DNA of 32,788 bases from Thermoplasmata archaeon. Its GTDB lineage: Archaea; Thermoplasmatota; Thermoplasmata; Thermoplasmatales; Thermoplasmataceae. Below are positions 26,805 to 30,398 of the stretch, piece after piece; position 1 is the stretch's first letter; each line of letters begins with the position of its first letter. The position numbers and the translations under genes were made by a program. Location of the stretch: NCBI GenBank assembly GCA_021794355.1, contig JAJYRA010000024.1, positions 1-32,788 on the forward strand. The letters are read 5' to 3'. The notes beneath the pieces were generated by a model. It was not told the DNA's origin, ran no database searches, and saw nothing but the letters and a program-made list of their open reading frames with translations.

Positions 26805-27392
26805 ATGGATTTTGTAACAACTCACCACCTGTTACCCTCAAACCTATTTGGATATACTTCCTTTACTGTTAATCTAATCCTGCTTCTCATAGGAATTGCG
26901 CTCAGTTTCAGGGGGGAGAAATCATGGAAGGTCATCATGCTTGCTCTGGGGGCCTATGGAGGTTTTGTAATTACGGCATATATTCTTGTGAGGTTTCATT
27001 TCACCGGATTGCCAACGATTCTCATATTTGCCATAGGGGCTGTAATTGGTGCTGTACTGTTCAAGTTTCTTGCTGAAATTGCCATATGTGCATCCATAGG
27101 ATTCACCGTTTTCATAGGGTTGGCCTATGTTACAGGTGCAGGTGTCGTGGTGGCAGGCATTGCTGCCCTCATAGCCTTTGCCTTTACCTATTATCGATTC
27201 AATAAAGTTGTCATATATGTAGCGGGTTTTGCCGGTGCCCTGGCCATATGGATAGCCCTCTATGGTCTGGGGCTTCCGGATATTAGTGCCCAGGTATTTG
27301 CAGCAGCAGCCATGATCATAGGAATATCCATGCAGAAATACGAAGAAAATCAGGATAAAATAAATAATAGAAGGGTCAGGAGTGACTACTGA
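26805..27392 (+). CDS. Multi-spanning membrane protein, DUF4203-like
   Basis: A 195-residue hydrophobic protein with about seven predicted transmembrane helices from residue 20 to 178, rich in Gly and Ala, and a charged cytoplasmic tail (QKYEENQDKINNRRVRSDY). The repeated Gly/Ala helices with short turns resemble DUF4203/TM7S3-type proteins of unknown function; this match is tentative. A TATA-like AAAATATAAG (about 26774-26783) is centred 26-27 nt before the ATG. The 3' end overlaps that of the convergent ETF gene by 17 bp. Confidence 0.65.
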   Translation: MDFVTTHHLLPSNLFGYTSFTVNLILLLIGIALSFRGEKSWKVIMLALGAYGGFVITAYILVRFHFTGLPTILIFAIGAVIGAVLFKFLAEIAICASIGFTVFIGLAYVTGAGVVVAGIAALIAFAFTYYRFNKVVIYVAGFAGALAIWIALYGLGLPDISAQVFAAAAMIIGISMQKYEENQDKINNRRVRSDY

Positions 27393-29100
27393 TAAGTCCC
27401 TCCAGTTTTTCTATGAAATTCTGCACGTCATCTACGCATCCATAGTCAGAATATTTGAATATGGGTGCCTGGGGGTCGTTATTAATGGAAAGGATATGCT
27501 TTGCATATCTCAGTCCCACGATGTGGTAATCCATTCCAGAAACCCCCAGGGCAACGTACAGTTCTGGGGAAATTGCGAGTCCTGTGAGTCCTATCTGCTG
27601 CTGTCTTGGTAACAGTCTCATATCCACAACAGGGCGAGAGCCACCCACTGCAATGCCCAGTTCCTGACCTATTTTAACAATACGATCAACGTTCTGTTTT
27701 CCCTTTACTCCCCTCCCTATACCAATTACTATATTCGCCGACTGAAGGGGTAGATACCTGGATTCCATCACTCTATCTTCCAGAATCTTATATTTTCCAG
27801 AATTTCTGAGATCAATTTGAATCACTTCAAGTTTATCCTCACATATCTTCTCAATGAAAATTCCGGGCCTTACCGTTGCCATTTCAGGTTTAGTCTTGGA
27901 TGTAATTCTTGCCACGATTCCGCCACCAAAGGCCGGTTTGAACTGTATGAGTGATTGTTCTTCATATCTTATATCAACACAATCTGCCGTCAGTCCAAGG
28001 GAAAGACCTGCGGAAATCATTCCTGCCACATCCTTTCCTGTGGAATTGGAGGGCAATATGACAAATTTTGGTTTTTCATTCTTTATATAATCAGCAATAT
28101 ACAAGGATATGGAATAAACATCCGAGGAATTAAAATGGATGTACTTGTTTGCAGCCATTCCACTTAGCAATTGTGGATCAACATTTCCCATGATCACCGT
28201 TTCGGTTTTAATTTCCCCTGAAATATCATTCAATTTTGCGGCTATCTGCATGGCAGAATCCCTATCGTCAAGCACAACTCCAAGAACCGTTCCACCGGTA
28301 AAATCCCTATTGAGAGTTGTTTTTTCTATCCTCTTTTTAGTATTCCCCTCTCTTATTATCCTTTCTAGGATGGAAAATGCTTCATCCGATGAGATCATTT
28401 TTACATTTCTCTGGTTGTGCAATGCCTCCGTTCCGGAAACCACCGTAAGAGAAGCTTCCACAGCATTTATGTCAAGATTCATCGTTTTTGAATCAACCAT
28501 CTGGACCCTGTCCTTCATTGGAGGAGCATCCTCAGGAACCTTTCTTGCCCTGTTTATTTTTTCACTTACAGATATGAGTAGGGGAAGGGATACCTGCAAA
28601 ACCCTTGTACCCCTCTCATAATCCTGTTCCACTGTTACCATGGAACTCCCAGTGTCCATATCAATCTTACTGACATTGGAAACAAAATTCATTCCACTCA
28701 TGAGGGATGTCTGTGGGGGCACCTGAGAAGTCTCGCCATCAAGGGAATATTTTCCAGCCAGAACAAGGTCTGGCTTTTTCATCCTTATAAAATGGGAGAG
28801 GATAAAGGATGTGGCCCAGGTGTCGGCTCCTCCAAATTTTCTGTCAGTAATTAGAAAAGCCTCATCTGACCCCATCTTAAGGGATTCTTCAAGCACGTCA
28901 ATTGCCTGTGGTGGACCCATGGAGGCAACAATCACATGAGCACCCGATTTCTCCTTTATTCTGAGGGCTTCTTCCACTGCTCTCCTGTCGAAGGAATTCA
29001 TGTTAAGAGGAACGCCTTCTCTTACTATTCTTCCCGTTTCTGGATTGAATGTGATCTTGCTGACATCCGGAACCTGTTTTATAAGGACCAGGATATTCAT
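27376..29100 (-). CDS. Fused electron-transfer flavoprotein, EtfB-EtfA in one chain
   Basis: A 574-residue fusion. Residues 1 to about 250 are the beta subunit: MNILVLIKQVPD, then the nucleotide loop LAGKYSLDGETSQVPP. Residues about 265-574 are the alpha subunit, ending in the FAD-binding C-terminal domain with GGSRPVVD (486-493), QIGLTG (502-507) and SGMDYHIVG near 521. ETF carries electrons from acyl-CoA and related dehydrogenases to a membrane quinone reductase, or in bifurcating types to ferredoxin. One-chain EtfBA proteins are known from other thermoacidophilic archaea. The start ATG overlaps the Rieske ferredoxin stop (ATGA), so the two are translationally coupled. No FixC/FixX genes are adjacent, which makes the Rieske protein a candidate partner. 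Confidence 0.93.
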   Translation of the reverse strand: MNILVLIKQVPDVSKITFNPETGRIVREGVPLNMNSFDRRAVEEALRIKEKSGAHVIVASMGPPQAIDVLEESLKMGSDEAFLITDRKFGGADTWATSFILSHFIRMKKPDLVLAGKYSLDGETSQVPPQTSLMSGMNFVSNVSKIDMDTGSSMVTVEQDYERGTRVLQVSLPLLISVSEKINRARKVPEDAPPMKDRVQMVDSKTMNLDINAVEASLTVVSGTEALHNQRNVKMISSDEAFSILERIIREGNTKKRIEKTTLNRDFTGGTVLGVVLDDRDSAMQIAAKLNDISGEIKTETVIMGNVDPQLLSGMAANKYIHFNSSDVYSISLYIADYIKNEKPKFVILPSNSTGKDVAGMISAGLSLGLTADCVDIRYEEQSLIQFKPAFGGGIVARITSKTKPEMATVRPGIFIEKICEDKLEVIQIDLRNSGKYKILEDRVMESRYLPLQSANIVIGIGRGVKGKQNVDRIVKIGQELGIAVGGSRPVVDMRLLPRQQQIGLTGLAISPELYVALGVSGMDYHIVGLRYAKHILSINNDPQAPIFKYSDYGCVDDVQNFIEKLEGLISSHS

Positions 29101-29417
29101 TGCAATTCAACCATTACTTCTCCATTTTCTATCCTGGTCTTGTATGATTTTAAAGGAGATATATCCCCTGCCCCCTCTGGTGGGCTGACAACCTCCCCAT
29201 TTTTGGGGTTGAATGTTGCAAAATGGTTTGGACATATGAGTTCATGGTTGTCCATGAATCCCTCCGAGAGGTCATATTCTTCGTGTGTGCACAGATGCGA
29301 CGTTGCAAAATAGTCATTCCCGTCCTTAATCAATAACACTTCAATACCATTTACCTTGAACTTTGCCAGATCGCCATCTTTCATGTCCCCTTCTTTCGCT
29401 ACTTTGTACCATGCCAT
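29097..29417 (-). CDS. Rieske-type [2Fe-2S] ferredoxin
   Basis: A soluble 106-residue Rieske protein without transmembrane helix or signal. Cluster ligands are CTH (Cys43, His45) and CPNH (Cys62, His65) separated by 16 residues, as in dioxygenase-type and arsenite-oxidase-like ferredoxins. The disulfide cysteines of bc1 Rieske proteins are missing, so a mid-to-low potential is expected. It heads a two-gene operon whose second gene, the fused ETF, overlaps its stop by 4 bp. TATAAAT (29439-29445) is centred 26 nt before the ATG, giving a leaderless mRNA. The coupling suggests it exchanges electrons with the ETF; it might alternatively serve the P450. Confidence 0.93.
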   Translation of the reverse strand: MAWYKVAKEGDMKDGDLAKFKVNGIEVLLIKDGNDYFATSHLCTHEEYDLSEGFMDNHELICPNHFATFNPKNGEVVSPPEGAGDISPLKSYKTRIENGEVMVELQ

Positions 29418-29438
29418 AGGGGTTTCATCAATTCAAAC

Positions 29439-29445
29439 TATAAAT
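29439..29445 (-). promoter_or_regulatory. TATA box of the Rieske-ETF operon
   Basis: TATAAAT (plus strand) is centred 26 nt upstream of the Rieske ATG at 29417. This predicts transcription starting at the initiation codon. Confidence 0.55.
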
Positions 29446-29498
29446 TACTATTGTGTCTTTTGGGAATTCTTTTCATTCACTGTCCTTAGCTTGAGATA

Positions 29499-29518
29499 AA
29501 TAAATCCTATGATTTATT
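29499..29518. promoter_or_regulatory. Palindromic operator candidate
   Basis: AATAAATC-CTAT-GATTTATT is a perfect 8-bp inverted repeat with a 4-bp centre. It overlaps a TATA-like GATAAATAAATC that could drive transcription toward the SufR-like gene, and lies 82-101 bp upstream of the Rieske start. The dimeric winged-helix regulator encoded next door is the obvious candidate ligand, by inference. Confidence 0.45.
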
Positions 29519-29574
29519 CATGTGAGCGGAGAGACTCCTTGACTTGGCAAGTGGAAGAAAGTGAACACTAATAT

Positions 29575-29685
29575 GTGAATGTGTTCAAACGTGTATTGTT
29601 TGATTATAATAACGGGAAGGGATTGCCTGAAGGGTTCAACGAAAAGGACATAAATGTCGCTATAAAGAGGAAAAGGGGGTTTTGA
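29575..29685 (+). CDS. Possible leader mini-frame upstream of the regulator
   Basis: GTG 29575 opens a 36-codon frame ending at TGA 29683-29685. Its text (including LFDYNNGKGLPEGFNEKD) looks protein-like but no family is recognised. It ends in AGG GGG TTT TGA, where a +1 slip continues into the next frame, reading to TGA 29768-29770. It could be a leader peptide, part of a frameshifted 64-residue protein, or a pseudogene remnant. Confidence 0.25.
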   Translation: MNVFKRVLFDYNNGKGLPEGFNEKDINVAIKRKRGF

Positions 29686-29686
29686 G

Positions 29687-29770
29687 GTGGCTCAAACAGT
29701 GAATCTCTATGAAGCAACCCCTTTCATGAAAATCATTAATAAAGATAATAAAATATTGTGGGGTGAGTGA
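29687..29770 (+). CDS. Possible coupled mini-frame overlapping the regulator start
   Basis: GTG 29687 opens a 27-codon frame whose stop TGA (29768-29770) overlaps the start region of the regulator (GTG 29763 or TTG 29772). AGGGGG (29674-29679) sits 7 nt upstream as a plausible ribosome-binding site. The arrangement would couple its translation to that of the regulator. No homology is recognised. Confidence 0.25.
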   Translation: MAQTVNLYEATPFMKIINKDNKILWGE

Positions 29771-30398
29771 ATTGGCAAGGGGAAAGCCCTCAAAAGTGAG
29801 ATTATTTGAGACGGTGAAGAAAATGGAATCTCCAACACTTACGCAATTGAGCAACGAAATGGGGATATCAAAAACCGCTATACTCAAGCAGGTTAATCTT
29901 CTTGAAAAGGATGGGGTGATTTCCAGAACCTACGTACCCACGGGAAAGGGACGTCCCGTATGCAAGGTGAACGTTACCAACAGATCCTATGACCAGCTAC
30001 AGGACACATATAGAAGTATTGCAGAAGATGCACTATCATACGTTGAGGAAAAGTTCGGATGCACACTCATAAACGAAATTATGGCCACAAGAAACATCAG
30101 ACTGGTGAACAAATACAGGTTGGAACTCCAGGATACCAGCTGGGAATTAATGCTCAAAAGATTTGAAGAAATGAGGAATACCGAAGGCTATCTGGCTGAA
30201 ATAAGCCAGTGGGATGATGGTACCATAGAAATTGCCGAATTCAACTGTCCTCTGATGAGGATTGCAGAGAAATATCATGACGCATGTGAATATGAGAAGA
30301 AATTCTTTCAGGAAATATTCCATATGGAGGTCATTAAAATGACCACCGTTCTTGAAAATACAAGGGCCTGTCGTTTTGTGCTGAAGGAAAGGGAATAG
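29763..30398 (+). CDS. Winged-helix transcriptional regulator, SufR-like
   Basis: A 211-residue DNA-binding protein. The N-terminal winged helix runs from TLTQLSNEMGISKTAILKQVNLLEKDGVI to the wing RTYVPTGKGRPV (about 25-70). The C-terminal half carries the ArsR/SufR-type cysteine motif Cys162-x12-Cys175, with Cys203 near the end. SufR regulators hold an Fe-S cluster on C-x12-C-x13-C-x14-C and control suf or redox genes. Here the third cysteine is absent (Glu at the expected site, His187 close by). The start is GTG 29763, or TTG 29772, which has GGTGAG well placed. Divergent from the Rieske-ETF operon, which it may control in response to Fe-S or redox state. The SufR-like label is moderately sure. 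Confidence 0.8.
   Translation: MSELARGKPSKVRLFETVKKMESPTLTQLSNEMGISKTAILKQVNLLEKDGVISRTYVPTGKGRPVCKVNVTNRSYDQLQDTYRSIAEDALSYVEEKFGCTLINEIMATRNIRLVNKYRLELQDTSWELMLKRFEEMRNTEGYLAEISQWDDGTIEIAEFNCPLMRIAEKYHDACEYEKKFFQEIFHMEVIKMTTVLENTRACRFVLKERE

Follow-up and report, generated by a model that had tools for sequence, protein, structure and literature searches.

A soluble Rieske ferredoxin gene is conserved beside the gene for a one-chain electron transfer flavoprotein in Thermoplasmata

The window analyzed here is a stretch of 32,788 nucleotides (contig JAJYRA010000024.1, assembly GCA_021794355.1) from the genome of a Thermoplasmata archaeon (2.05 Mb, 97% complete). It carries a gene for a soluble Rieske [2Fe-2S] ferredoxin that overlaps the start of a gene for an electron transfer flavoprotein (ETF) in which EtfB and EtfA are fused into a single chain (EtfBA). 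A sequence-only reading of the window had described this 4-bp overlap, which the open reading frames and their Pfam matches bear out (Table 1), and had proposed that the Rieske protein may be a dedicated donor or acceptor of electrons for the ETF. The direct observations on the pair are its gene structure, its conservation and co-occurrence, and the motifs and folds of its proteins. The genomic evidence supports the Rieske protein as the dedicated partner of EtfBA, given the near-perfect co-occurrence of the two genes, their conserved overlap, and the loss from EtfBA of the loop by which other ETFs recognize dehydrogenases.

The sequence-only reading had put forward a survey of relatives, and the pair proved to be conserved in them, the two genes mostly adjoining in 61 relatives. 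Among 390 genomes of the phylum, the EtfBA clade is present in 32; the Rieske protein is encoded in 30 of these (in G028 through a paralogue only) and in none of the remaining genomes. According to their coordinates, the two genes are directly adjacent on the same strand in 26 of the 30 genomes, are separated by 1–4 kb in G022 and G403, and lie on separate contigs in G023 and G028. In genus g6, both genes are present in a single genome (G151) and absent from four. The genome drafts are incomplete, and the co-occurrence counts include related genomes and do not amount to a probability. In the GTDB collection we found 70 EtfBA loci, nearly all in records named Thermoplasmata, Thermoplasmatota or their genera. 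The Rieske gene stands immediately upstream of EtfBA at 50 of these loci, and at eight further loci it is inside the fetched flank without being immediately upstream. The genes overlap by 4 bp at 24 of the 50 adjacent loci and by 1 bp at 19, and abut at 3 (46 overlapping or abutting), and this overlap exceeds chance. The Rieske gene is also upstream of EtfBA in Thermogymnomonas (L146), where the assembly is frame-shifted, and in a second order of the class (that of G364) a protein with a Rieske motif overlaps EtfBA in all eight genomes. Other neighboring genes vary by lineage, and only the Rieske and EtfBA genes persist throughout. Furthermore, Rieske and EtfBA distances correlate even when a control gene is accounted for (partial Mantel 0.47, 0 of 5000 permutations; 30 loci, uncorrected distances and a single control gene).

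Lineages lacking an adjacent Rieske gene may have another gene beside EtfBA; a gene for a CDGSH-type [2Fe-2S] protein adjoins it at L056, L057, L098, L101, L104 and L107. The CDGSH protein is a weak candidate for a replacement of the Rieske protein, as the f3 genomes have the CDGSH gene also without this EtfBA. In the genome G028, where no Rieske orthologue adjoins EtfBA, there are two tandem Rieske paralogues of the CSHLG type (L160:9194-10945). A 718-aa open frame in G013 was considered as a natural Rieske-EtfBA fusion and was rejected, since an intervening TAG stop separates the genes.

Beyond what the sequence-only reading had noted, EtfBA carries motifs of the bifurcating type. Its top sequence matches in the PDB are the bifurcating ETFs 5ol2, 6fah, 7qh2 and 4kpu (120–155 bits, versus at most 98 bits for non-bifurcating ETFs), and its AlphaFold model (predicted local distance difference test score, pLDDT, of 90) matches ETF chains. 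Residue conservation was scored over 64 homologues. The DGDTAQVGP sequence was described as a recognition motif for the β flavin adenine dinucleotide (β-FAD) that is missing from non-bifurcating ETFs (PMC9232219). Its counterpart in EtfBA, DGETSQVPP, differs from it in D to E and A to S, both conservative, and in G to P; D121, E123, T124 and Q126 are invariant in all 64 homologues, and the other positions are retained in at least 60. The same study placed the NADH site at R87, F89 and G91, and an Arg or Lys at N5 of the β-FAD (PMC9232219). Among the homologues, the NADH site has R in 51 (R87 being replaced in the other 13, mostly by P or K), F or Y in 59, and G in all 64, and the basic N5 residue would be K388 (Table 1). 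By these β-FAD, NADH-site and N5-site criteria, EtfBA would be classed with the bifurcating-type (group 2) ETFs, as a single-chain member. The N-x-P-R recognition loop is present in none of the 64 homologues, which have instead a near-invariant, clade-specific S-V-S-E-K-I-N-[RK]-A-R; an R531-Y532 pair, likewise clade-specific, directly follows the α-FAD domain.

The Rieske protein fits the dioxygenase-type ferredoxins both in fold and in cluster ligands, being soluble, 106 aa long and free of disulfide cysteines. Its model (pLDDT 96) matches the CarAc, BphA3 and naphthalene dioxygenase ferredoxins, and the protein has neither the membrane anchor nor the disulfide cysteines of the bc1-type respiratory Rieske proteins. 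The x16 spacing and the Glu that follows the first cluster His are found in 51 of 51 ETF-linked Rieske homologues, which have two or three cysteines each and none of the respiratory disulfide type; the proteins are acidic, with a net charge of −4 to −12. Disulfide cysteines distinguish the high-potential respiratory Rieske proteins from forms without them (PMC2946596), and a low redox potential is therefore to be expected of this protein. The host genome (G000) has four Rieske-domain matches, in open frames of 111, 120, 115 and 249 aa, and none of these four is of the size of a Rieske oxygenase, so that an oxygenase partner is unlikely. A second Rieske-domain frame of this genome (C55:59258-59512) contains an internal TAG and is probably a decayed gene or an assembly error.

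The host genome also encodes two further ETFs, which the sequence-only reading had not included. One is arranged as FixC-FixX-EtfB-EtfA on contig C89, and the EtfB of the other, on contig C50, keeps the N-x-P-R loop and adjoins genes for two acyl-CoA dehydrogenases and a thiolase (named by inspection). The Rieske-EtfBA locus itself has neither FixC nor FixX. The classical ETF partners of the host are thus already encoded with its other ETFs.

We think it somewhat probable that EtfBA is an NAD(P)H-oxidizing ETF of the bifurcating type with a dedicated one-electron partner, the low-potential Rieske ferredoxin. From the conserved features we infer that electrons would pass from NAD(P)H through the ETF to the Rieske protein; the Rieske protein is more likely to be an acceptor than a donor for the ETF. 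In such a scheme, a hydride from NAD(P)H would be transferred to the β-FAD in the EtfB part, and electrons would move one at a time from the β-FAD to the α-FAD on the mobile EtfA domain. The α-FAD domain would then dock on the co-translated Rieske ferredoxin, in place of an acyl-CoA dehydrogenase or FixC, and the Rieske ferredoxin would ferry single electrons to a downstream acceptor. We favor this route because it is the simplest one that uses every conserved feature. Dioxygenase-type Rieske ferredoxins usually have potentials near the −136 mV of the α-FAD. This value belongs to the semiquinone/hydroquinone couple of the α-FAD in the Clostridioides difficile ETF (PMC5691135), and since the two potentials are close, the one-electron transfer would be nearly level.

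A more far-reaching possibility, which we regard as doubtful, is that the pair forms a new flavin-based bifurcation system: NADH would deliver its electrons to one ferredoxin and one Rieske protein, and the latter would be the high-potential acceptor, as in the quinol-bifurcating cytochrome bc1 complex. For a ferredoxin near −420 mV, we estimate that the two-electron reaction would still run downhill from NADH by about 70 mV. However, a cluster potential of −280 mV is given for the major ferredoxin that was studied in these organisms (PMC2946596), so that bifurcation may not be needed, and it is for this reason that we give true bifurcation a low probability. The flow could also be reversed, with ferredoxin and reduced Rieske protein both donating electrons to EtfBA for the reduction of NAD(P)+ (confurcation). 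Ldh-EtfAB runs in the confurcating direction (PMC9232219), and ferredoxin, reduced by 2-oxoacid oxidoreductases, is plentiful in Thermoplasma and Sulfolobus (PMC2946596); yet a Rieske ferredoxin fits better as an acceptor of electrons from NADH than as a donor for NAD+ reduction, and no Rieske reductase is visible, which leaves confurcation unlikely.

Equally improbable, in our judgment, is an arrangement in which an acyl-CoA dehydrogenase, such as an AidB-like one, feeds EtfBA while the Rieske protein stands in for ETF-quinone oxidoreductase toward the respiratory chain. The AidB-like gene is present across most of the family and is located directly 5' of EtfBA in G023 and L143, but the N-x-P-R loop is missing from all 64 EtfBA homologues, another ETF is divergent to the same AidB-like gene, and the host has the separate acyl-CoA dehydrogenase-linked ETF of contig C50. 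Moreover, G017 has EtfBA but no AidB-like gene, and G016 and G032 have the AidB-like gene but no EtfBA, a distribution on which the AidB-like protein was rejected as an obligatory donor. We consider it quite unlikely that the two genes merely share a promoter and act in separate electron paths, the Rieske protein serving a molybdoenzyme, a peroxide-removing protein or another enzyme. Such a separation would accord with genus g7, in which the Rieske gene adjoins a molybdopterin oxidoreductase gene and lies 5.7 kb from the ETF gene. That molybdoenzyme family is, however, absent from the host genome and genus, so it was rejected as a general partner of the Rieske protein, and the near-perfect co-occurrence holds even where the genes are apart, which argues for a shared function.

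Several points weigh against the assignment of EtfBA as an NAD(P)H-oxidizing ETF that delivers electrons to the Rieske ferredoxin. The pair is known here from genes, motifs and folds. A bifurcation motif does not prove bifurcation, and the low Rieske potential would follow from the missing disulfide. EtfBA has no accompanying Rieske orthologue in G045 and G048, and the only Rieske protein in G028 is a paralogue. The two genes are apart in G022, G403, G023 and G017, so adjacency is not obligatory. The small basis of the Mantel correlation given above is a further weak point.

Two of the gene arrangements mentioned here were located precisely. At L153:9342-12842 and L143:2029-5553, the gene directly 5' of EtfBA encodes the AidB-like protein, the Rieske gene is elsewhere, and a two-gene ETF is divergent to the acyl-CoA dehydrogenase gene. 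At L150:5927-6942 and L154:4630-5645, both of genus g7, the Rieske gene is relocated beside that for a small molybdopterin oxidoreductase (PF00174).

When compared with known systems, EtfBA shares with the bifurcating EtfAB proteins (C. difficile EtfAB-Bcd, CarCDE and Ldh-EtfAB) the fold, the β-FAD motif, the NADH-site residues, the basic N5 residue and the α-FAD domain. Unlike them, it is a single chain with a Rieske partner, and it lacks the N-x-P-R loop, a dehydrogenase subunit and an N-terminal 4Fe ferredoxin domain. The pair resembles FixABCX/EtfABCX in that an ETF predicted to oxidize NADH is encoded beside a dedicated small Fe-S protein, but FixC is missing and a Rieske [2Fe-2S] protein takes the place of FixX. 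As in BphA4-BphA3, a soluble Rieske ferredoxin, matched by its fold, is predicted to receive single electrons from an NADH-oxidizing flavoprotein, and the BphA4-BphA3 complex (2yvj) is a precedent for flavoprotein-to-Rieske transfer. In contrast to that system, the reductase would be an ETF rather than a BphA4-type protein, no oxygenase was found in the host genome, and the cluster loops are CTHE and CPNHFA, where two aligned dioxygenase ferredoxins have CTHG and CPLHQ or CTLHF. By its description, the archaeal Rieske-type ferredoxin (ARF) of Sulfolobus is similar, being soluble with two His and two Cys ligands and no disulfide (PMC2946596).

Table 1. Positions of features at the Rieske-EtfBA locus, numbered in the window
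Feature	Position	Strand	Basis or detail
Fused EtfB-EtfA (EtfBA), 574 aa	27376-29100	-	Pfam ETF 4.8e-53 and ETF_alpha 1.9e-23, single chain
EtfA-part α-FAD domain, residues 452-530	27511-27747	-	Pfam ETF_alpha; R489, T506 and H526 invariant
K388	27937-27939	-	Aligned with the Arg contacting β-FAD N5 (LctC R205); invariant 64/64
Residues 177-186, SVSEKINRAR	28543-28572	-	Occupies the position of the N-x-P-R dehydrogenase-recognition loop of other ETFs
EtfB-part β-FAD motif DGETSQVPP, residues 121-129	28714-28740	-	Counterpart of DGDTAQVGP of bifurcating ETFs
NADH-site residues R87-x-F89-x-G91	28828-28842	-	Spacing equal to R87/F89/G91 of PMC9232219
Soluble dioxygenase-type Rieske [2Fe-2S] ferredoxin, 106 aa	29097-29417	-	Pfam Rieske 1.4e-17
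Overlap of Rieske stop and EtfBA start, 4 bp, ATGA	29097-29100	-	Open reading frame coordinates
Rieske ligand motif C43-T-H45-E ... x16 ... C62-P-N-H65-F-A	29223-29291	-	C-x-H ... C-x2-H ligands
Probable archaeal TATA element of the Rieske-EtfBA operon	29438-29446	-	AATTTATAG, 21-29 nt upstream of ATG
Divergent SufR-family winged-helix regulator, 211 aa, GTG start	29763-30398	+	NCBIfam SufR_cyano match

The probable TATA element was called solely from an alignment with relatives and by judgment against the consensus. The divergent gene on the other side of this region was confirmed to encode a winged-helix protein with the C-x12-C motif that the sequence-only reading had recognized, and a third cysteine follows after x27. 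It matches NCBIfam SufR_cyano (7e-17) at 61.8 bits, well under the 178.8-bit cut-off. The arrangement C162-x12-C175-x27-C203 has exactly the spacing of the Mycobacterium tuberculosis SufR ligands C203, C216 and C244 (PMC6034842), and all three cysteines are retained in adjacent orthologues, which makes an Fe-S cluster in the regulator plausible. The protein is thus like M. tuberculosis SufR in its winged helix and cysteine pattern, but unlike SufR it is encoded away from the suf operon and falls below the equivalog cut-off. The further proposal that expression of the pair is set by Fe-S status fared less well: the ligand cysteines are in place, yet the regulator adjoins the pair at only 13 of the 70 loci, all in the Cuniculiplasma and E-plasma groups, and in the remaining lineages methionine aminopeptidase or other genes take its side of the pair. 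In addition, a different SufR homologue (38.4 bits in NCBIfam, 22% identical to the regulator at the locus) precedes the suf genes. If Fe-S status governs the pair, it would therefore do so at most in some lineages. We examined inverted repeats between the regulator and Rieske genes and found no conserved operator.

A second copy of the block containing the regulator is present on a 5430-bp contig (L190, G000:C25) with the order thymidylate kinase, methionine aminopeptidase, SufR-like protein (70% identical) and metallo-β-lactamase. It has neither the Rieske gene nor EtfBA and is perhaps a stray contig from a second Cuniculiplasma species. On the far side of the pair, a gene at 26805-27392 of the window runs tail to tail into EtfBA and overlaps its 3' end. 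It encodes a predicted membrane protein of 195 aa that has no Pfam match and whose family is retained at 28 of the 70 loci.

ETFs are classed by their partners, and Rieske ferredoxins are absent from the partners described in the open-licence literature that we searched, in which we found no mention of such a pair. The module is small and soluble and is found in two orders, and it suggests what a Rieske ferredoxin may do in genomes without Rieske oxygenases. It also bears on a question left open for Cuniculiplasma and other Thermoplasmatales, namely how they oxidize NADH when their complex I lacks the NADH-oxidizing subunits (PMC5155288). The pair may be one route by which these acid-loving archaea do so. 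If true bifurcation did take place, it would give the Thermoplasmatales, which have no NuoEF (and in Cuniculiplasma no NuoG), a soluble means of oxidizing NADH that charges ferredoxin for the truncated complex I.

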